Program-made: the position numbers and the translations under genes | The notes under the pieces: model-generated | The model's input: only the letters and a program-made list of their open reading frames with translations | Told to the model about the DNA's origin: nothing | Database searches by the model: none | In this document: positions 1 through 7,673 of the stretch, in pieces | Position numbering within the stretch: position 1 is the stretch's first letter | How the letters are laid out: every line of letters starts with the position of its first letter | DNA from: an uncultured Clostridium sp. | Lineage (GTDB): Bacteria; Bacillota_A; Clostridia; Lachnospirales; Lachnospiraceae | NCBI GenBank assembly: GCA_947174825.1 | Contig: CAMWKN010000058.1 | Span: forward strand, 1 to 7,673 | Length of the DNA: 7,673 nucleotides | Direction of reading: 5' to 3'

Positions 1-1
1 A

Positions 2-133
2 TGCTACACCATTGCTAAACCGTATAAAAAAATAGAAGGAGTAAAGGCGGAGATAAGGGTTTTTGGTGGTATTGAATACTATCAAGAGCCTTCTCTTTTT
101 CTTGTTCAAGAAAGTTTTAAAATGGGTATTTAA
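2..133 (+). CDS. 3' end of an unidentified upstream gene (partial)
   Basis: A frame open from the window edge runs 43 codons to a TAA at 131-133. It reads as ordinary protein, with alternating charged and hydrophobic residues including IEGVKAEIRVFGG and YYQEPSLFLVQES, and ends in SFKMGI. I do not recognise the family. The true start lies outside the window. The ATG at position 1 is in another frame and meets a stop after five codons, so it is not the start of this gene. The next gene has its own promoter about 80 bp downstream, so this gene is probably a separate transcription unit. No clear hairpin terminator is visible after its stop. The open frame is short enough that chance cannot be excluded. 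Confidence 0.5.
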   Translation, partial: CYTIAKPYKKIEGVKAEIRVFGGIEYYQEPSLFLVQESFKMGI

Positions 134-196
134 ATATGTTCAATTTTCAGTATATCTTATGGTTATGGGTATTATACAATTTTGGTATTTGAATAC
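69..196. repeat. GTATT-type palindromes upstream of the first promoter
   Basis: Four small AT-rich dyads share the core GTATT/AATAC or a shortened form: GTATT-G-AATAC (69-79), TATTTAAATA (127-136), GTAT-T-ATAC (169-177) and GTATT-TG-AATAC (185-196). The last ends 13 bp before the -35 box. A further GTATT occurs at 229-233, between the promoter boxes. They could be operator sites for a repressor, but AT-rich DNA produces such motifs often and no regulator is encoded in the window. Confidence 0.25.
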
Positions 197-209
197 TAAA
201 ATTTAATAC

Positions 210-238
210 TTGACAAATAGATTAGAATGTATTAAGAT
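210..238 (+). promoter_or_regulatory. Sigma-A promoter for the degenerate methylase/specificity gene
   Basis: A perfect -35 box TTGACA (210-215) is followed by a 17-bp spacer and the -10 box TAAGAT (233-238), one mismatch from TATAAT. Transcription would begin near 245, giving a leader of about 35 nt before the preferred start codon. This is the best promoter match in the window. It would drive the gene at 280-1887, and possibly the downstream operon by read-through, since no terminator is evident between them. Confidence 0.72.
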
Positions 239-256
239 TACTATAGGTCTAAAAGT

Positions 257-274
257 GGAGTGCAATAGTGGAGG
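257..274 (+). promoter_or_regulatory. Two ribosome binding sites giving alternative starts
   Basis: The stretch AGTGGAG occurs twice, at 254-260 and 267-273. The first gives GGAG (257-260), 7 nt before a GTG at 268. The second gives a stronger GGAGG (270-274), 5 nt before ATG 280 and 8 nt before ATG 283. The second site is the better Shine-Dalgarno match and is paired with ATG codons, so I prefer the start at 280 or 283. The GTG at 268 remains possible and would add four residues. Confidence 0.5.
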
Positions 275-279
275 CGGAT

Positions 280-1887
280 ATGATGGGAAAAACTATGTAT
301 AATGAATTTTATGATGAGATGAATGTCATGAGAGGTATTGTCAAAAAAGATCAGATAATACAGGGACTCTTATTAATAAATCAAGTTCGTCGGGCGATAG
401 AAAAAGGCCATGTAGCTGAGACGGCGGAAGAACTTTATGCGCTTCTTTTAATGGTTGCGGATGAGGAGGGGGTACCTAATCCTTTTGATGATAGTGCTCA
501 GTTTTATAAAATTTTTTCTAGCGTAACGGGGCGGATACCTTGGGAACATGTTTTGATATTGGATTTTCAAAATTCCAGATATCCGATTCTTCCAGAAGTT
601 TTAATTAGAAAGTTAGCATCTCGGATTACGTTTGAGACAGAAACAGTTTTGATAGCTGAGGCGGAAAAATTCGTTCCATCTTTGCAGTGGATTGTGGACG
701 AACATATTAATTCTGAATTTGTGCTTACTAGTCAGGATGCTAAATATATTAGAGCGCTTGAAAATGTGTTTGAGGAGTATGATAACGTTAAAGTTGTGCA
801 GACGAATATCTATGAATATGAATTTGTCAATCAGCGTTTCGATGTGATACTTGCTTCACCGTTTTTTGGTGGAAGGACTCTTGTAGAAGATAGAACTTTT
901 ATTTGTCGTGAATACGATATGGTTGCCTTGGAGAATCTTTCTTATCACTTAAATAGTGGAGGTGAGATGGTAATAATTCTTCCTGGAAGAATTACTTTTG
1001 CTACTGGAAAAATAGCAGATTTAAGAAATTTTGTGCAGAGTAATTACACTATTAATGAACTTGCAGAATTACCAGAAGGGGTATTGGAATACACAGGTAT
1101 TAAGACATATTTGCTTGATATAGAGAATACCAGACCAGGAGATGACGATGTGATTATCCGGAGATATTCTGCTGGTGAACGTAAATCAAAACGAGCTGCA
1201 GTTACAGAACTTAACATTAAAGATGATACCTTTGTAATGCTAAGTGAGTTAGAACAACAAGGAGATTGGAATGTTGACCGCATATTTGCACAGCAGGATG
1301 ATGAATACTTAAACTATCAGAATTCAAGTGTTCGCAAGGATTTTCTTGGAAATGTGGCACAGGTGTTTAGAGGTAAGTCTGTCTCAAAAAAAGTTGAGAA
1401 TGGCGCTATAGGTGTTCTGAATATATCAAATATTGGAGAATATGAGATTGATTACGAAAATTTAGATACTATTGATGAAGATGAACGTAAAGTGGCTAAT
1501 TATATCTTACAAGAGGGTGATGTGCTTCTTCCGGGAAGAGGCACATCCATAAGAACTTCCGTATTTCATACACAGAACTTTCCTTGCATAGCGCACTCTA
1601 ATGTAATTGTAATAAGACCAGACGAGAAAAAATTGAGTAGTGTATACTTGAAACTATTTTTGGACAGCCCGCTTGGGAATAAGCTGATAAGTAGTGCACA
1701 ACAAGGGACGACAATAATGAATATCAGTTATAAAGATTTAACGTGTCTTGAAATTCCTATTCCACCAATTGCGGAACAGAAGAAGGTTGCTGAAGAGTAT
1801 ATAAAAGAATTAAATATATATATGGATATAGTATCAGAAGCTGAAAAACGTTGGAAGAATGTTCTTGGTAAGTTGCAAAGTTTTTGA
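280..1887 (+). CDS. Degenerate N6-methyltransferase fused to one HsdS-like recognition domain
   Basis: About 535 residues. The first part (to about residue 345) resembles the N6-adenine DNA methylase fold of HsdM and type IIG enzymes: a helical N-terminus, a Rossmann-like core, then the FDVILA strand that normally leads into the NPPF/Y catalytic motif IV. Here that motif reads SPFF (S193-F196), so the key Asn is Ser and the second Pro is Phe. Where motif I (DPxCGxGG) should lie, VLIAEAEKFVPSL (about 123-135) has no glycine loop. SAM binding and catalysis are therefore probably lost. From about 351 to 490 the sequence resembles an HsdS target recognition domain (FRGKSVSKK, EGDVLLPGRG, NISYKDL), closing with IPIPPIAEQKKVAEEY and a C-terminal helix like the HsdS conserved region. 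I infer a DNA-binding accessory or decoy subunit of the adjacent type I system. It could instead be a divergent methylase family with an unusual catalytic motif. Start choice: see the ribosome binding sites at 257-274. Confidence 0.8.
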   Translation: MMGKTMYNEFYDEMNVMRGIVKKDQIIQGLLLINQVRRAIEKGHVAETAEELYALLLMVADEEGVPNPFDDSAQFYKIFSSVTGRIPWEHVLILDFQNSRYPILPEVLIRKLASRITFETETVLIAEAEKFVPSLQWIVDEHINSEFVLTSQDAKYIRALENVFEEYDNVKVVQTNIYEYEFVNQRFDVILASPFFGGRTLVEDRTFICREYDMVALENLSYHLNSGGEMVIILPGRITFATGKIADLRNFVQSNYTINELAELPEGVLEYTGIKTYLLDIENTRPGDDDVIIRRYSAGERKSKRAAVTELNIKDDTFVMLSELEQQGDWNVDRIFAQQDDEYLNYQNSSVRKDFLGNVAQVFRGKSVSKKVENGAIGVLNISNIGEYEIDYENLDTIDEDERKVANYILQEGDVLLPGRGTSIRTSVFHTQNFPCIAHSNVIVIRPDEKKLSSVYLKLFLDSPLGNKLISSAQQGTTIMNISYKDLTCLEIPIPPIAEQKKVAEEYIKELNIYMDIVSEAEKRWKNVLGKLQSF

Positions 1888-1911
1888 GTAAATAAGTTTT
1901 ATTAGTATAAG
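1884..1911 (+). promoter_or_regulatory. Candidate promoter for the fusion-hsdM operon
   Basis: TTGAGT (1884-1889), overlapping the stop codon of the upstream gene, is followed by a 16-bp spacer and TATAAG (1906-1911). A perfect TATAAT lies immediately after (1912-1917), but its spacing from the -35 box would be 22 bp. The leader would be roughly 80 nt. Weaker than the promoter at 210-238. The 114-bp gap from 1888 to 2001 shows no convincing terminator hairpin, so the operon may be fed by both promoters. Confidence 0.4.
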
Positions 1912-2001
1912 TATAATATATTTCAGATATAAAAATGTACCAGAAAATAAATTATTTCATATAAGATGCAATGTATGTCTTTATAGGAAAGGAGTTACAG
2001 C

Positions 2002-4419
2002 ATGCTAGGAGCGATCATTGGGGATGTTGTCGGGTCTCGTTTTGAATGGAATAATTACAGAGCTAAGGATTTCGAATTTCTTACATATAAATGTTTCCCA
2101 ACTGACGATACTGTAATGACATTGGCGTTGGCCCAGGCAATATTAGTAAGTAAACCAGACTACAGTGATCTTTCGCAGAAAGCGATTGAATGTATGCAGA
2201 GGGTAGGACGTAATTATCCTGACTGCGGCTATGGTGGAGGATTTTATCATTGGATGTTCTCTGACAAACCTGAACCATATAACAGTTTTGGAAATGGTGC
2301 GGCTATGAGGGTAAGTGCTGCAGGTTTTGCAGCGAAAAGTCTTGAAGAAGCCAAGATACTTTCTAAGAAGGTTACGGAAGTAACACATAACCATCCAGAG
2401 GGAATCAAAGGAGCAGAAGCTACAGCGGTTGCAATCTACATGGCTAAGACTGGAAGTAGTATGTTGAAGATCAGAGATTACATCAATAATAATTACTACA
2501 AGATAGACTTTACGCTAGATGAGATCAGGGATGTATACCAGTTTAATGAAACCTGTCAGGAAACAGTTCCGCAAGCGTTGGAAGCATTTTTTGAGTCAAC
2601 CGGTTTTGAAGATGCGGTTCGTAATGCTATCTCGATTGGAGGAGACAGCGATACACTTGCAGCTATTTGTGGTGGCATAGCTGAAGCATATTACGGTATT
2701 CCATCAGATATTAGAAAGCATGCACTAACTTTTCTTGATGAGCGCTTGATGCAAATATTGATTATGTTTGAGAACAAATATCCTCCGGTTATGGAGAAGA
2801 AAATCGGAGATGTGAGTGTACCTATCAGTCGCAAAGTAACACGCAAAGTCAAAGGCGGAAATCGTGAAGATATCATTGAAGATGCTACAAAAGCTGCGGA
2901 TGATGATGCTACAGAATCTGAGAATACTGCAGAGGAAACAACCAGCCAACAATTGTTTAATCACTTGTTTGAAGCTTGTAATATTTTAAGGGGGCCGATA
3001 AATCAGGATGAGTTTAAAAGCTATGTAACACCAATTCTCTTTTTTAAGCGTATCTCTGATGTCTATGATGAAGAATTTGAAGAGGCTATGGAATTTTCTG
3101 GCGGAGATATAGAATATGCAGAGGCAGAGGATATGCATTCTTTTGTTATCCCAGAAGGGTGTCATTGGAATGACGTTCACGAAGTGAGTGGAAATGTTGG
3201 GAAGGCAATCGTCAAAGCTATGACCGGCATCGAAAAAGCTAATCCTGATACATTGTCTGGCGTGTTTAGTAGTTTTGATGATGCGACGTGGACTGATAAA
3301 AATAAACTGACTGATGAGAGGTTAAAGAACCTGATAGAGCATATGTCACTGATTAGGGTTGGTAACAAGAACTATTCTGCAGATATTATGGGCGACAGCT
3401 ATGAATTCCTGATAAAGAAATTTGCGGATATGTCCAAGAAGAATGCTGGTGAGTTCTACACACCACGTCCAATTGTTAAGTTGATGGTTAAATTACTTGA
3501 TCCTCAGCCGGGGGAAACTGTTTATGATCCAGCTTGTGGAACCGGCGGTATGTTAATTGAGGCTATTCGCCATATGAAAAATGACCGTCTTGCATATGGT
3601 AGGATTTTTGGTCAGGAGAATAATCTGTCCACATCTGCAATTGCCAGAATGAACCTTTATCTTCATGGTGCTAAGGATGTGCAGATTAAGCAGGGTGATA
3701 CCTTGCGGAATCCACTATTTTTGGATAAAGGGAAACTGAAAGCATTTGATTGTGTGCTTGCTAATCCTCCATTTGGTATGGAAAAATGGGGGGCACAGCA
3801 GTTTGAATCTGATATGTATGGAAGAAATATCTGGGGGTGTCCTAGTGATTCAAGTGCAGATTATGCATGGCTTCAACACATGGCGGAGTCTATGAATCCA
3901 AAAACCGGACGTTGTGCTGTGGTTCTTCCGCAGGGAGTGCTGTTCCATTCGGGTAAGGAGGGAACGATCCGCAAGCAATTAATTGAGTCTGATAAACTTG
4001 AAGCTGTTATTACTTTGGCAAGTGGTGTGTTTTACAGTACTGGGGTATCAGCTTGTATTTTATTTCTGAGGAACAAGAAGCAACATAATCATAAAGGAAG
4101 AATCTGTTTAATTGATGGATCAGAAATTTATACACCAAAGCGTGCACAGAATGTATTGGAACCAAAAGATGTTGATACATTATATAAACTCTACACTGAC
4201 TATACAGATGTAATTGATAAATGCAAGATAGTAACAATAGCAGATGTTGAAGCTGGTGGCTATGAACTCAGTGTTAATAAATATATTGAGAGGAAAAAGC
4301 AAGAAACGGTATCCCCAGCAGTTGTGCGAATGAGATACTACGCAGCACTGCAGGCGGTTCGCGAAGCTGAGGACAAGATGAACAGACTGTTGATTGAAGG
4401 AGGATATGTGAATGAGTAA
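2002..4419 (+). CDS. ADP-ribosylglycohydrolase-HsdM fusion protein
   Basis: 805 residues. Residues 1-264 form a complete ADP-ribosylglycohydrolase (DraG/ARH fold, binuclear Mg2+ hydrolase removing ADP-ribose from modified targets): GAIIGDVVGSRFEW (3-16), TDDT (34-37), FGNGAAMRV (96-104), HNHPEG (129-134), GGDSDT (213-218). T34, D35, D36, D215, D217 and T218 match the usual metal ligands, so the domain should be active. Residues 265-313 are a basic-then-acidic linker. Residues 314-805 are a full-length HsdM, the methylating subunit of type I restriction-modification: N-terminal helices (LFFKRISDVYDEE), GEFYTPRP (483-490), SAM motif I DPACGTGGM (509-517), catalytic NPPF (588-591). The start ATG has AAGGAG at 1989-1994, 7 nt upstream. 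No stop or frameshift lies in the linker, and the only nearby internal ATG (2791) has no ribosome binding site, so one polypeptide is expected. It overlaps the next gene by 8 nt. The substrate of the hydrolase domain is unknown: protein, DNA and free metabolites are all possible. Confidence 0.93.
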   Translation: MLGAIIGDVVGSRFEWNNYRAKDFEFLTYKCFPTDDTVMTLALAQAILVSKPDYSDLSQKAIECMQRVGRNYPDCGYGGGFYHWMFSDKPEPYNSFGNGAAMRVSAAGFAAKSLEEAKILSKKVTEVTHNHPEGIKGAEATAVAIYMAKTGSSMLKIRDYINNNYYKIDFTLDEIRDVYQFNETCQETVPQALEAFFESTGFEDAVRNAISIGGDSDTLAAICGGIAEAYYGIPSDIRKHALTFLDERLMQILIMFENKYPPVMEKKIGDVSVPISRKVTRKVKGGNREDIIEDATKAADDDATESENTAEETTSQQLFNHLFEACNILRGPINQDEFKSYVTPILFFKRISDVYDEEFEEAMEFSGGDIEYAEAEDMHSFVIPEGCHWNDVHEVSGNVGKAIVKAMTGIEKANPDTLSGVFSSFDDATWTDKNKLTDERLKNLIEHMSLIRVGNKNYSADIMGDSYEFLIKKFADMSKKNAGEFYTPRPIVKLMVKLLDPQPGETVYDPACGTGGMLIEAIRHMKNDRLAYGRIFGQENNLSTSAIARMNLYLHGAKDVQIKQGDTLRNPLFLDKGKLKAFDCVLANPPFGMEKWGAQQFESDMYGRNIWGCPSDSSADYAWLQHMAESMNPKTGRCAVVLPQGVLFHSGKEGTIRKQLIESDKLEAVITLASGVFYSTGVSACILFLRNKKQHNHKGRICLIDGSEIYTPKRAQNVLEPKDVDTLYKLYTDYTDVIDKCKIVTIADVEAGGYELSVNKYIERKKQETVSPAVVRMRYYAALQAVREAEDKMNRLLIEGGYVNE
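4396..4403 (+). promoter_or_regulatory. Ribosome binding site inside the fusion gene, for the second hsdM
   Basis: GAAGGAGG sits within the last codons of the fusion gene, 8 nt before the ATG at 4412. That ATG lies in the 8-nt overlap ATGAGTAA, which holds the start of one gene and the stop of the other. This geometry favours termination-reinitiation coupling, which would keep the two HsdM products near equal amounts. It also fixes the start of the second hsdM. Confidence 0.75.
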
Positions 4420-5893
4420 GAAGATTACCCAGGATGAGCTTGAATCTTATCTTTGGGGTTCGGCAGTTCTTTTAAGAAATCATATAGATGCCGGAGCTTA
4501 CAAGCAATATATTTTCCCGCTTCTGTTCTTCAAACGTCTGAATGACGTTTATGAGGAGGAGACAGAAAAAGCTGTAAAAGAAAATGGTCCGGAGGCAGCT
4601 ACATGGGAAGAAACGCATAATTTCTCCGTTCCGGATGGTGCGCATTGGGATGATGTGAGAAATGTTTCAGAGAATGTAGGAAAAGCGATACAGAAGGCTT
4701 TTCGTGTTATTGAAAAATCAAATAATGAAAAATTACAAGGGATTTTTGGTGATGGTACATGGACAAATAAAAATCGGCTCCCAGACAGATTGTTAAAAGA
4801 TCTTTTGGAGCATTTTAGCAGTAAAACATTATCGATTGAGAACTGCCCGGAGGATGAGTTGGGACAGGGGTATGAATATCTCATCAAACAATTTGCGGAT
4901 GATAGTGGACACACTGCACAGGAGTTCTATACCAATCGTACGGTTGTCCATTTGATGACTGAAATGTTGAAGCCGGAATCCGGAGAGTCTATTTATGATC
5001 CTACCTGTGGAAGTGCAGGCATGCTAATTTCGTCCATTTCACATCTGAAGAACAACGGAAAAGAATGGAGAAACGTATCACTATATGGTCAGGAGATAAA
5101 TGCCCTGACATCTGCAATCGCCAGAATGAATTTGTTTCTTCATGGTATAGAGGATTTTAGGATTGCCAATGGGGATACACTTGCAGCGCCAGCATATATA
5201 GAACATGGAAAATTACAGCAATTTGACGTAGTAGTAGCCAATCCGCCTTACTCCATAAACCAATGGAACCGAAATGCTTTTTCCGCAGATAAGTATGGCC
5301 GAAACTTCTTGGGAGTTCCTCCACAGGGGCGCGCAGATTATGCTTTTTTGCAGCACATTTTGAAAAGTATGAAACAGAATACTGGCAGGTGTGCAATTCT
5401 TTTCCCGCATGGAGTTCTTTTTAGAAATGAAGAGAAGGACATGAGAGAAAAACTAGTGCGTTCAGATTTGCTGGAATGTGTAATCGGTTTAGGCCCTAAT
5501 TTGTTTTATAACTCACCGATGGAAGCCTGTATTGTTATTTGCAGATCGAAGAAGCCAGAGAACCATAAAGGTCATATACTTTTTATCAATGCTGTAAATG
5601 AGGTTACAAGAAAAAATGCTCAGAGCTATTTGGAGTTGCAGCACATTGATAAAATTGCGAAAGCATATGAGGAATTTAAAACAGATAATGATATCGCGAA
5701 GAAGGTATCTATTCGCGATATCGAGAAAAATGATTTTTCGTTGAGTATTCCGTTATATGTTAAAGATCCGTCTGCAATCACTTTTGAATTGGTAATGACA
5801 GTGCAGGATAGTTATGACGTATGGCTTAGGAGATCTCGGCGTTTAAGAGCATATTATGAAGAACTTGAAAATTTACTTAAGAGGGAGGAATAA
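4412..5893 (+). CDS. hsdM: Type I restriction-modification methyltransferase subunit HsdM (second copy)
   Basis: 493 residues, a complete HsdM that with HsdS methylates adenine in the recognition sequence using SAM. Visible: helical N-terminal domain (LFFKRLNDVYEEE), QEFYTNRTVVHLM before motif I, motif I DPTCGSAGM (196-204), YGQEIN acidic region, catalytic NPPY (277-280), and a helical C-terminus ending LLKREE that would contact HsdS. It is a paralogue of the HsdM half of the preceding fusion: the two are nearly the same length and share blocks such as LTSAIARMNL/STSAIARMNL and the YGRN...ADYA..LQH region, but are clearly divergent, so this is not a recent duplication. Both keep their catalytic motifs. 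Motif I has SAG in place of the commoner GxGG, a variant I regard as active. hsdS starts 2 nt after its stop. It contains an 11-bp inverted repeat near its 3' end. Confidence 0.95.
   Translation: MSKKITQDELESYLWGSAVLLRNHIDAGAYKQYIFPLLFFKRLNDVYEEETEKAVKENGPEAATWEETHNFSVPDGAHWDDVRNVSENVGKAIQKAFRVIEKSNNEKLQGIFGDGTWTNKNRLPDRLLKDLLEHFSSKTLSIENCPEDELGQGYEYLIKQFADDSGHTAQEFYTNRTVVHLMTEMLKPESGESIYDPTCGSAGMLISSISHLKNNGKEWRNVSLYGQEINALTSAIARMNLFLHGIEDFRIANGDTLAAPAYIEHGKLQQFDVVVANPPYSINQWNRNAFSADKYGRNFLGVPPQGRADYAFLQHILKSMKQNTGRCAILFPHGVLFRNEEKDMREKLVRSDLLECVIGLGPNLFYNSPMEACIVICRSKKPENHKGHILFINAVNEVTRKNAQSYLELQHIDKIAKAYEEFKTDNDIAKKVSIRDIEKNDFSLSIPLYVKDPSAITFELVMTVQDSYDVWLRRSRRLRAYYEELENLLKREE
5690..5722 (+). 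repeat. Perfect 11-bp inverted repeat inside hsdM
   Basis: GATATCGCGAA at 5690-5700 and its exact reverse complement TTCGCGATATC at 5712-5722 are separated by 11 nt. In mRNA this forms an 11-bp stem with an 11-nt loop, about 170 nt before the hsdM stop. It encodes part of a charged segment (DIAKKVSIRDIE) without breaking the frame. No T-run follows, so it is not a classical terminator. Function unknown. Confidence 0.6.
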
Positions 5894-5895
5894 TA

Positions 5896-7041
5896 ATGCC
5901 TAAGTATAAATTTTCAGATATTGCTATCAACAGTACCAAAAAGAAGAAGCCTGTGGAGGAGGACAAGTATACATACATTGGACTAGAACATCTTGATTCG
6001 GGTACATTAACAGTTTCCAGGTGGGGTGCGGAGGTCGCACCGATAGGTGAAAAACTCATCATGAAAAAGGGTGATGTATTATTTGGTAAGCGTCGTGCAT
6101 ATCAGAAAAAAGTGGGGATTGCACCATTTGACGGGATCTTCTCGGCGCATGGAATGGTTCTCAGACCAAAGGAAAAAGTAATTACAAAGGAGTATTTTCC
6201 GTTGTTTATTAGCTCAGACTATTTCCTTGATAAAGCCATACAAATATCAGTAGGTTCGCTATCGCCAACAATTAACTGGAGAGATCTAAAAAATTTGGAG
6301 TTTGAGCTACCTTCTATTGAAGAACAGCAACGCGTAGCACCTGTAATATGGGCAGTGATTGATACGAAGAATGCGTATAATAAACTGCTTCAGGAAACAG
6401 ATGAATTGATCAAATCGCAATTTATTGAGATGTTTGGCGAAGAGGAAGTTGGCGAATGTAAATGGCCAGTCGCATTAATGGAAGATGTTTTTTCAATCAC
6501 ATCTAGTCGTCGTATTTTGAAATCTGAATGGAAAACAGAAGGTAGTATTCCATTCATTAGAGTAAGAGATATGGTGCAGCTTGCTAATGGAGAACCGCTT
6601 ACAAACGAATTCTTTGTTTCTGAAGAATTTTATAATAGCAGACCTGAGGATGAAATTGTGAAAGCAGGCTATATTATAGTTTCAGCAACCAGCACTATCG
6701 GCAAAACCTACATTATAAAGCCGGGCGAACGATTCTATTTTAAGGATGCGGATGTTCTGCTGTTTAGAAAGAAGAAAAATATTAATGAGATATTCTTTAC
6801 GTACGGTCTTACGATGCCTACGGTATGGAAACAAATAGAAGGTGGATTGGGAGCTACAACAGTTGCGCATTTCCTTATTTCAAAGGCAAGCAAATTGAAA
6901 CAACCGTTACCACCGACTGAGCTACAGGAAGAGTTTGCAAGACTTCTAGAACAGACCGATAAATCAAAATTTGAATTGAAGCAGGCCATCGAAGGTGTAG
7001 AGAACCTCATCAGATCTTTGGTACATCAAGAACTAAAATAA
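5896..7041 (+). CDS. hsdS: Type I restriction-modification specificity subunit HsdS
   Basis: 381 residues with the two-half architecture of HsdS, which reads the bipartite DNA target and holds two HsdM copies. The first recognition domain spans about 1-138. It is followed by the central conserved helix (PSIEEQQRVAPVIW, then LLQETDELIKSQFIEMFG, 139-181). The second recognition domain spans about 190-335, followed by the C-terminal helix (PLPPTELQEEFARLLEQTDKS, about 337-381). The two recognition domains are unlike each other, so the target should be asymmetric and bipartite; its sequence cannot be predicted here. The start ATG is 7 nt after GGAGG (5884-5888), 2 nt past the hsdM stop, so translation is likely coupled. 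The ending RSLVHQELK is a normal HsdS terminus, yet the same frame stays open for 35 codons after the stop (see 7042-7149). No inverted second hsdS copy is present in the window, so inversion-type phase variation is not supported. Confidence 0.93.
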   Translation: MPKYKFSDIAINSTKKKKPVEEDKYTYIGLEHLDSGTLTVSRWGAEVAPIGEKLIMKKGDVLFGKRRAYQKKVGIAPFDGIFSAHGMVLRPKEKVITKEYFPLFISSDYFLDKAIQISVGSLSPTINWRDLKNLEFELPSIEEQQRVAPVIWAVIDTKNAYNKLLQETDELIKSQFIEMFGEEEVGECKWPVALMEDVFSITSSRRILKSEWKTEGSIPFIRVRDMVQLANGEPLTNEFFVSEEFYNSRPEDEIVKAGYIIVSATSTIGKTYIIKPGERFYFKDADVLLFRKKKNINEIFFTYGLTMPTVWKQIEGGLGATTVAHFLISKASKLKQPLPPTELQEEFARLLEQTDKSKFELKQAIEGVENLIRSLVHQELK

Positions 7042-7149
7042 TTCCAATTTGTTGTTGAGAATAATAGGAAGATTAATGAATTAGCTCAGGGCAGTTATAA
7101 ACGCAATTGTAATATCGCATTATGCGAGGAAGGAGGAAATCATGTTTAA
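7042..7149 (+). pseudogene. Post-stop coding remnant, probably the tail of an older hsdS-type gene
   Basis: Directly after the hsdS TAA (7039-7041) the same frame continues for 35 sense codons to a TAA at 7147-7149. It has no ATG, GTG or TTG of its own. The first part contains VENNRKINELA, which resembles the coiled-coil segment common near the end of HsdS proteins (typically xENNxKINxxLEQ). Its stop overlaps the hsdR start as ATGTTTAA, the same 8-nt start-stop geometry seen between the two hsdM modules. I infer that an earlier gene, translationally coupled to hsdR, once ended here and was later truncated or replaced. Alternatively, this is only a 100-nt leader that happens to be open. Confidence 0.4.
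7131..7136 (+). promoter_or_regulatory. Ribosome binding site for hsdR
   Basis: AGGAGG within GAGGAAGGAGGAAAT, 5 nt before the ATG at 7142. It is a full-strength Shine-Dalgarno and fixes the hsdR start. No convincing promoter is visible in the 100-nt gap after hsdS, so hsdR probably shares the operon transcript. Confidence 0.75.
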
Positions 7150-7673
7150 TGAAGACAACACAACTGAGCAGATGATTATTACAACGCTTAGTAAAAATGG
7201 TTGGGAATATATCTCGCCGGAAGAACTTGAACGTGAAGAAAGCGATGTCATGGTTGAGTCCATGGTACGTGATGCACTAATTCGCCTTAATCCGGAAATC
7301 GCGACGGACGAATCCAGAGCGGATGAAATCATTTACAAATTAAGAACACTTTTTTTATCAACCAATACACAGAACCTTGTTACTCAGAACGAGGCATTTA
7401 AACAGATGGTTTTTGAGAAGAATTCTTATCCTTACGCAGAGGATGGTAAACAGGTATCTATTGATTTTTTTGGAACTGAAATTAATGGTAAGTTGGATAA
7501 GAATCAATATGTTGTGACAAATCAATGGGTTTATCCGAAGAAGGATGGCGGCAAACGTCTGGATATTGTATTGCTTGTGAATGGATTTCCATTTGTAATA
7601 GGGGTATTAAAGACACCCGTTCGTGCGGCAATTACTTGGTTAGATGGTGCTCAGGACATTAACAAGTATGAAC
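7142..7673 (+). CDS. hsdR: Type I restriction endonuclease subunit HsdR, N-terminal part (partial)
   Basis: 177 codons are present and the gene runs off the window; the family is usually around 1000 residues with nuclease, helicase/translocase and C-terminal helical domains. Only the N-terminal PD-(D/E)XK nuclease domain (HSDR_N) is seen. It includes TQNLVTQNEAFKQM, VVTNQWVYP and the core strand pair LDIVLLVNGFPF...LKTPVRAAITWLDGA. The catalytic Asp is D141 and the Lys is K157. The position expected to hold Glu, two before the Lys and fourteen after the Asp, is V155 (codon GTA, 7604-7606). EcoR124I has D151, E165 and K167 with identical spacing. The usual sequence here reads GELKTP or GEVKTP. 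DNA cleavage is therefore probably lost or weakened, while any downstream translocase could still work. A sequencing error at one base would also explain it. Confidence 0.92.
   Translation, partial: MFNEDNTTEQMIITTLSKNGWEYISPEELEREESDVMVESMVRDALIRLNPEIATDESRADEIIYKLRTLFLSTNTQNLVTQNEAFKQMVFEKNSYPYAEDGKQVSIDFFGTEINGKLDKNQYVVTNQWVYPKKDGGKRLDIVLLVNGFPFVIGVLKTPVRAAITWLDGAQDINKYE

Follow-up and report, generated by a model that had tools for sequence, protein, structure and literature searches.

An ADP-ribosylhydrolase domain fused to a complete HsdM in a putative PacII-like type I restriction-modification operon of an uncultured Clostridium sp.

Analysis of a 7,673-nucleotide stretch of DNA from an uncultured Clostridium sp. 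(contig CAMWKN010000058.1, positions 1 to 7,673, hereafter the window) revealed that positions 2002-4419 encode an intact ADP-ribosylhydrolase (ARH) domain that is joined to a complete HsdM in one chain. Open reading frame (ORF) analysis, Pfam searches and motif positions bore out the initial annotation, made from the sequence alone, which had described an uninterrupted 805-codon ARH-HsdM gene with the motifs TDDT, GGDSDT, DPACGTGGM and NPPF. In the fusion protein, Pfam detected ADP_ribosyl_GH (PF03747) at residues 1-233 with 113.9 bits (cut-off 26.2), HsdM_N at residues 320-448 with 84.3 bits (cut-off 24.5) and N6_Mtase at residues 459-768 with 315 bits (cut-off 20.4). The features of the gene are as follows.

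1985..1994, + strand: aggaaaggag, resembling a ribosome-binding site, 5' of the fusion ATG (direct sequence reading)
2002..4419, + strand: ARH-HsdM1 fusion gene of 805 codons that starts with ATG and is not interrupted by a stop (ORF reading and Pfam)
2002..2787, + strand: ADP-ribosylhydrolase (ARH/DraG) domain, about residues 1-262
2044..2046, + strand: E15, matching the N-terminal Glu of ARH3 in the alignment; conserved as E in 252 of the 255 fused and free-standing rows
2101..2112, + strand: TDDT, first metal site, residues 34-37 (sequence and alignment)
2638..2655, + strand: GGDSDT, second metal site, residues 213-218 (sequence and alignment)
2788..2937, + strand: linker, residues 263-312, in which the AlphaFold2 model places a beta hairpin at 263-276 and a helix at 288-305
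2938..4416, + strand: HsdM1 body of the NPPF type, residues 313-805 (Pfam); best solved match 7vru chain A, E 7.5e-136
3445..3456, + strand: AGEF motif of M1, residues 482-485, kept in 134 of 135 fused rows
3526..3552, + strand: DPACGTGGM, S-adenosylmethionine-binding motif, residues 509-517 (sequence)
3763..3774, + strand: NPPF, catalytic motif of M1, residues 588-591 (sequence and alignment)

All ligands expected for a binuclear metal site are present in the ARH domain (T34, D35 and D36; D215, D217 and T218), and 128 of 135 fused rows retain all seven metal and catalytic positions. The counterpart of E15 in ARH3 presumably has a catalytic or gating role. The ARH domain is under purifying selection, with a ratio of nonsynonymous to synonymous substitution rates (dN/dS) that stayed under 0.1 in each of the three pairs allowing its calculation, and the corresponding ratio of uncorrected proportions (pN/pS) was higher for the linker than for either domain in 15 of 15 pairs; one locus with a stop inside M1 (L011) had been left out of alignment A1. 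Intact active-site residues and purifying selection support the view of the initial annotation that an intact ARH/DraG-type domain is linked to a full HsdM within a restriction operon. The length of the tether is also conserved, positions 260 and 316 being separated by exactly 56 residues in 124 of the 135 fused rows. The solved structures closest to the ARH domain are those of ARH3 and DraG-type enzymes; ARH3 ranks first both by sequence and by Z score (27), and DraG (25) and ARH1 (23) follow closely. In contrast to the ARH/DraG enzymes ARH3, DraG, Tri1 and Lmo0067, the domain lies here within a methyltransferase chain and no paired transferase was seen.

When the whole protein was used as a query, both Pfam domains were found in one chain in each of the 120 best matches (of 6356), although a whole-length query is biased toward fused proteins. 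With M1 alone as the query, 113 of the 120 best matches listed carry the ARH domain and seven lack it; two of these seven (P0245 and P0251) begin within linker-like sequence. The 36 loci taken from named genomes comprise 16 fused ones, 17 with an M1 that lacks ARH, one (L026) cut by the contig end and two (L033 and L034) with a free-standing ARH only. A tblastn search (E 1e-5) of the flanks fetched for the 17 loci with an ARH-less M1 did not detect an ARH there either. The fusion is widespread, and the situation that would have spoken against the initial annotation, a fusion confined to one assembly with two separate genes in close relatives, was not encountered: ARH and M1 were not seen as two adjacent genes, an ARH beside M1 being either fused or absent. 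An assembly artefact or chimaera was rejected, as the fusion recurs with both domains and a near-constant tether much more often than chance would allow. Fused loci belong to Lachnospiraceae, Oscillospiraceae, Domibacillus (Bacillaceae) and one Sphaerochaeta (a spirochaete), and many of them are metagenome bins; some of the proteins are named 'type I restriction enzyme M protein' or 'N-6 DNA methylase' in databases. The fusion occurred in 4 of 397 sampled genomes from the family of the genome carrying L001, in 1 of 394 from the order of that carrying L007, in 1 of 247 from the phylum of that carrying L005 and in 2 of 398 from the phylum of that carrying L016 (the second, G1056, ends in an ambiguous stretch); the genome at the centre of each sample was a known carrier, so these frequencies are biased. 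Long frames with weaker ARH matches also occur, for example in G016, G174:C28 and G254.

With regard to mobile elements, 3489 of 72,556 plasmid records matched the query and none covered more than 80% of it. Four loci were found on viral contigs, three with the whole fusion (L037 repeats the pattern of L002) and one with a cut M1 without ARH. Among eight phage records with ARH relatives, none was shown to be fused and the two inspected stand alone. In phages of Porphyromonas and Bacteroides, free-standing relatives (46-49% identical) are located near capsid and portal genes (L124:6001-6783 and L126:5001-5774). Two further arrangements were observed. At L077:77-2268, an ARH is followed by a short M1-like tail and then by an intact M2, the sole case of an ARH adjoining M2, with an apparent deletion of most of M1. 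At L100:436-2331, a long ARH protein of 632 residues combines an ARH 63% identical to that of the window with an unrecognised C-terminal half.

The fusion gene lies in an operon with the following neighbours.

268..1887, + strand: P1 gene, 539 residues, methyltransferase-like domain followed by a Methylase_S domain (Pfam and alignment)
4412..5893, + strand: HsdM2 of the NPPY type, its first 8 bases shared with the 3' end of the fusion gene; best solved match 7vru chain B, E 2.8e-173
5896..7041, + strand: HsdS with two Methylase_S stretches (Pfam); best solved match 7vru chain C, E 1.4e-42, over residues 4-271
7142..7673, + strand: HsdR, first 177 codons, continuing past the window edge (Pfam HSDR_N)

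The overlap between the fusion gene and M2, the start of S only 2 bases after the M2 stop codon and the start of HsdR as the next gene indicate a tight operon, in which two adjacent, unlike M genes accompany S and R (the latter up to the window edge). The second hsdM noted in the initial annotation is indeed present; it is, however, not a duplicate but an M2 of the NPPY type, as in systems that combine N6-methyladenine (m6A) and N4-methylcytosine (m4C) modification. These sequence features are best explained by a PacII-like m6A/m4C type I restriction-modification (R-M) system, of which the fusion would be the m6A-type M1 subunit. PacII (7vru/7vs4) is a structure-solved, 'non-canonical' m6A/m4C type I enzyme of M1M2S composition (PMC9613975) which, like the window, has two different M subunits (AGEF/NPPF and NPPY), an S subunit with two target domains and an HsdR, and among solved structures M1, M2 and S of the window each match their PacII counterpart best (7vru chains A, B and C). 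In contrast, the M1 chain of PacII has 499 residues, is matched from residue 8 and lacks an ARH domain; the M2 of the window contains AQEF where AAEF is given for PacII-type M2 (PMC9613975), with NPPY being present; and the window has P1 as an additional upstream gene.

P1 consists of a methyltransferase-like domain without NPPF/Y and a half specificity domain. Pfam placed N6_Mtase at residues 170-319 with 23.5 bits (cut-off 20.4) and Methylase_S at residues 359-509, and in a 12-sequence alignment SPFF or xVPxFGG-like letters occupy the expected NPPF/Y site; P1 is probably catalytically dead and accessory. Relatives of P1 occur in 11 of 20 tabulated fused loci and also ahead of M1 in the unfused loci L015, L017, L018 and L019. 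In other loci, a 292-residue gene without Pfam match lies between M1 and M2 (L029:11464-12339), a similar one is found in L036 and a different one in L027, which makes the gap between M1 and M2 another insertion slot. A phage-type integrase is encoded beside duplicated or partial S genes in L002:15632-17851 and L009:15057-16966, which suggests shuffling of target specificity; L007, L008, L013 and L014 contain ORFs of comparable size and location.

In order to follow the history of the fusion, trees of both modules were considered. The M1 tree comprised 49 rows (32 fused and 17 unfused; L026, whose contig starts inside M1, L077, P0245 and P0251 were left out). On this tree the fused state needs eight changes, six of them forced by well-supported branches, and 0% of 200 bootstrap trees separated the fused rows from the rest by a single branch. 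In the ARH tree, with 64 rows (30 fused and 34 free-standing) and a bootstrap that had not settled, fused and free-standing rows are intermixed, with 14 changes of which six are forced, and again the fused ARHs were set apart by a single branch in 0% of 200 bootstrap trees. The count of 14 remained when P0147, P0211, P0196 and L077 were omitted; P0147 and P0211 are free-standing ARH rows that terminate in linker-like sequence and may be fission products. In L113 and L114, the ARH is 83% identical to that of the window and M1 only 69-70% identical, and such mixing of a close ARH with a distant M1 indicates that the modules recombine. A single ancient fusion with purely vertical descent is disfavoured by the bootstrap result and by the L113/L114 pairing. 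The ARH module, patchy on the M1 tree, is optional for the R-M system and is best read as an exchangeable accessory added to the N-terminus of M1; neither this nor the PacII-like two-M type of the host system was within reach of the initial annotation.

The window contains no ADP-ribosyltransferase (ART), as stated in the initial annotation, and neither DarT nor a macrodomain DarG (ORFs and Pfam). The flanks of other loci, which the initial annotation had proposed to inspect, comprised 168 non-R-M ORFs of at least 100 residues around 19 fused loci. No ART family was found in the 40 ORFs scanned singly (39 of the 168 neighbours and one ARH-NADAR protein), in which no Nudix protein, phosphatase or chaperone was recognised either; the scans are incomplete. 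An additional batch scan covered 110 neighbour ORFs (17 of them shared with the 40 scanned singly), with the 25 commonest of 129 families listed. Defence-model matches among the neighbours (25 of 31 families listed, E 1e-10, batch scan) were ZacA-C, AbiJ, DpdF and mads; an HD domain occurred in 2 of the 110 ORFs, its locus not being placed, and a WYL regulator is found in L007, L013 and L039 among the 19 fused loci. In L039:722-8897, on an IMG/VR contig of 114 kb, a WYL regulator, a protein with a microbial PARG domain and a YhcG nuclease precede the ARH-M1 operon.

Genome-wide counts were used to dismiss a stable DarT, NADAR or PARG partner. None of the 18 fused genomes and 2 of the 14 unfused ones contain DarT; many of these genomes are metagenome bins and possibly incomplete. 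NADAR was present in 5 of 18 fused versus 3 of 14 unfused genomes and PARG_cat_microb in 5 of 18 versus 1 of 14, and there is no clear coupling of either to the fusion. By contig numbers, with G1440 left out, only the NADAR of G007 shares a contig with the fusion; there, an ARH-NADAR fusion protein (L112:7462-10026) is encoded about 14 kb from the ARH-M1 gene of L009, and this locus and L039 are the two in which other ADP-ribose enzymes lie close by. KptA was rejected as a partner, since it was met at one place only, present twice (L045 and L107), among 126 loci. In L107:3703-4374, a free-standing ARH (62% identical) adjoins this RNA 2'-phosphotransferase (KptA/Tpt1), which we take to be an ART-fold enzyme. 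In the unfused M1M2S systems of Vibrio sp. (L029:18026-20322) and Shewanella colwelliana (L036:18033-20362), whose M1s are closely alike, two DarT-family genes and a macrodomain-type gene directly follow HsdR (DarG-like macrodomains were scanned for in L029 only). Among 150 Vibrionaceae genomes, an M1 of this type occurred in 4 and DarT in 18, indicating that the DarT coupling is occasional.

Tentatively, and with less than even confidence, we favour the reading that the docked ARH domain would remove ADP-ribose that a phage or other invader has attached to the restriction complex or in its vicinity, acting from the M1 subunit of a PacII-like system. The tether would place the eraser on the M1-M2-S(-R) machine, the invader would add ADP-ribose to the complex or to molecules around it, and local removal would allow methylation and restriction to outlast the attack, as a counter-counter-defence. 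Catalytic activity, the substrate, the link to phages and the benefit of docking on M1 are what we infer here. Phage T4 is known to deploy ADP-ribosyltransferases on host proteins (PMC10468400), and in section 3.8 of PMC9503650, on ARG-centred systems, erasers that lack a coupled writer are predicted to protect hosts from viral ADP-ribosylation. The loci studied here may resemble those systems in that no writer was seen with the eraser among the ORFs scanned singly, with WYL in three fused loci and some defence-model neighbours; in contrast, that section names REase-fold effectors and helicases and no HsdM fusion. We are more doubtful of the wider view that the module would be a built-in repair arm against phage transferases, its free-standing and docked forms being exchanged in step with changing phages. 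ADP-ribosylation would then be a conflict to which m6A/m4C type I systems are repeatedly exposed, some lineages answering with a docked ARH and others with DarT-DarG genes in the operon.

Several observations weigh against the favoured reading. In L015, M1 is 92% identical to that of the window and directly follows P1, and the ARH domain is absent; this M1 starts with a linker remnant (ITESENTAEGTTSQQLF versus ATESENTAEETTSQQLF), so the domain was apparently deleted in place, although L015 is a metagenome bin and a mis-assembly is possible. L004 still encodes one chain but lacks metal ligands of the ARH; compared with the window, its ARH has a pN/pS of 0.27 and its M1 one of 0.14, the four other ARH comparisons with the window giving 0.12-0.15, but the intact pair L006-L002 also reaches 0.23. 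In six further fused rows of the 135, E15, D217 or the metal site is altered. Deletion, decay and altered sites indicate that many systems do without the ARH. Also, the arginine-linked marks of T4 ModB are removed by ARH1 and not by ARH3 (PMC10468400), and a domain nearest to ARH3 may therefore not act on a ModB-type mark, though it is also close to the arginine enzymes. No report of a phage ADP-ribosylating a type I enzyme was met in the literature covered, where no search was aimed solely at that point. Relatives of the ARH, the best of them 65% identical, are also present in phages (8 of 50,697 records), which means that its use is not confined to host defence. Finally, 104 of the 129 batch-scan families lie outside the 25 listed and other ORFs were unscanned, so that a transferase could hide among the neighbours.

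It is unlikely, in our judgement, that the domain clears base- or phosphate-linked ADP-ribose from DNA near the recognition site, so that DarT-type marks cannot block methylation or restriction. Such a role would fit the geometry of PacII, in which the parts of M1 and M2 comprising the N-terminal and catalytic domains meet and shift toward bound DNA, with M1 residue D25 at the M1-M2 interface (PMC9613975). As read from the offset of the M1/7vru alignment, the tether enters about 20 residues before the D25 equivalent, close to that interface, so the ARH should sit near the clamp and a DNA substrate is possible. A review states that type I operons of pathogenic E. coli and cyanobacteria often contain an inserted DarTG (PMC8883491), and the unfused systems L029 and L036 described above end in DarT-family and macrodomain-type genes. 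In these cases, too, ADP-ribosylation enzymes are physically tied to type I R-M, but DarTG consists of a transferase and a macrodomain eraser as separate genes, whereas the domain studied here has an unrelated fold, is fused and has no transferase in sight. DarT is missing from all fused genomes counted, and with a pI of 4.9 and a net charge of about -11 the ARH is an acidic domain. A bacterial ARH3-like enzyme left guanosine-linked ADP-ribose on RNA in one panel (PMC11833690), and the thymidine and guanosine erasers named in the literature covered (PMC8883491 among the sources) are macrodomains and NADARs. The DNA substrate considered in the initial annotation is thus either not supported or left undecided by the acidity of the domain, its ARH3/DraG-type structural kin and the RNA panel.

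Similarly unlikely is a role in immunity against ART toxins secreted by rivals, or a neutral hitch-hiker on a mobile R-M operon. Structural matches of the domain include two entries of ART toxin/immunity pairs (6dre and 8za7) and the module is often lost and exchanged, but no toxin locus was recognised among the scanned neighbours and the low dN/dS argues against a neutral passenger. We regard as improbable a regulatory gate in which a host enzyme would ADP-ribosylate the R-M complex, thereby toggling restriction, and the built-in ARH would reset it, by analogy to the DraT/DraG logic of nitrogenase; no conserved transferase was seen in the loci, and the R-M system persists where the ARH module is lost. 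There is an equally small chance that the domain degrades ADP-ribose derivatives such as O-acetyl-ADP-ribose, ADP-ribose phosphates or immune signals and that the fusion serves dosage or co-expression only. One characterised member of the ARH family does act on O-acetyl-ADP-ribose (PMC9503650), and 13 inspected free-standing relatives stand in varied contexts, one of them beside KptA/Tpt1. However, the near-constant 56-residue tether suggests that position matters, although close kinship among the rows could explain it as well.

The fusion was not described in the open-licence literature searched. We regard it as an apparently uncharacterised combination of known parts under selection, and as a probable variant of m6A/m4C type I systems. 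Host antidotes to viral ADP-ribosylation have been predicted, with hardly any understanding of them according to the authors (PMC9503650). If the favoured reading is true, a major restriction class would carry a dedicated antidote to phage-borne ADP-ribosylation, which could help to explain erasers lacking writers, and the natural docked, deleted and decayed versions make this idea directly testable.

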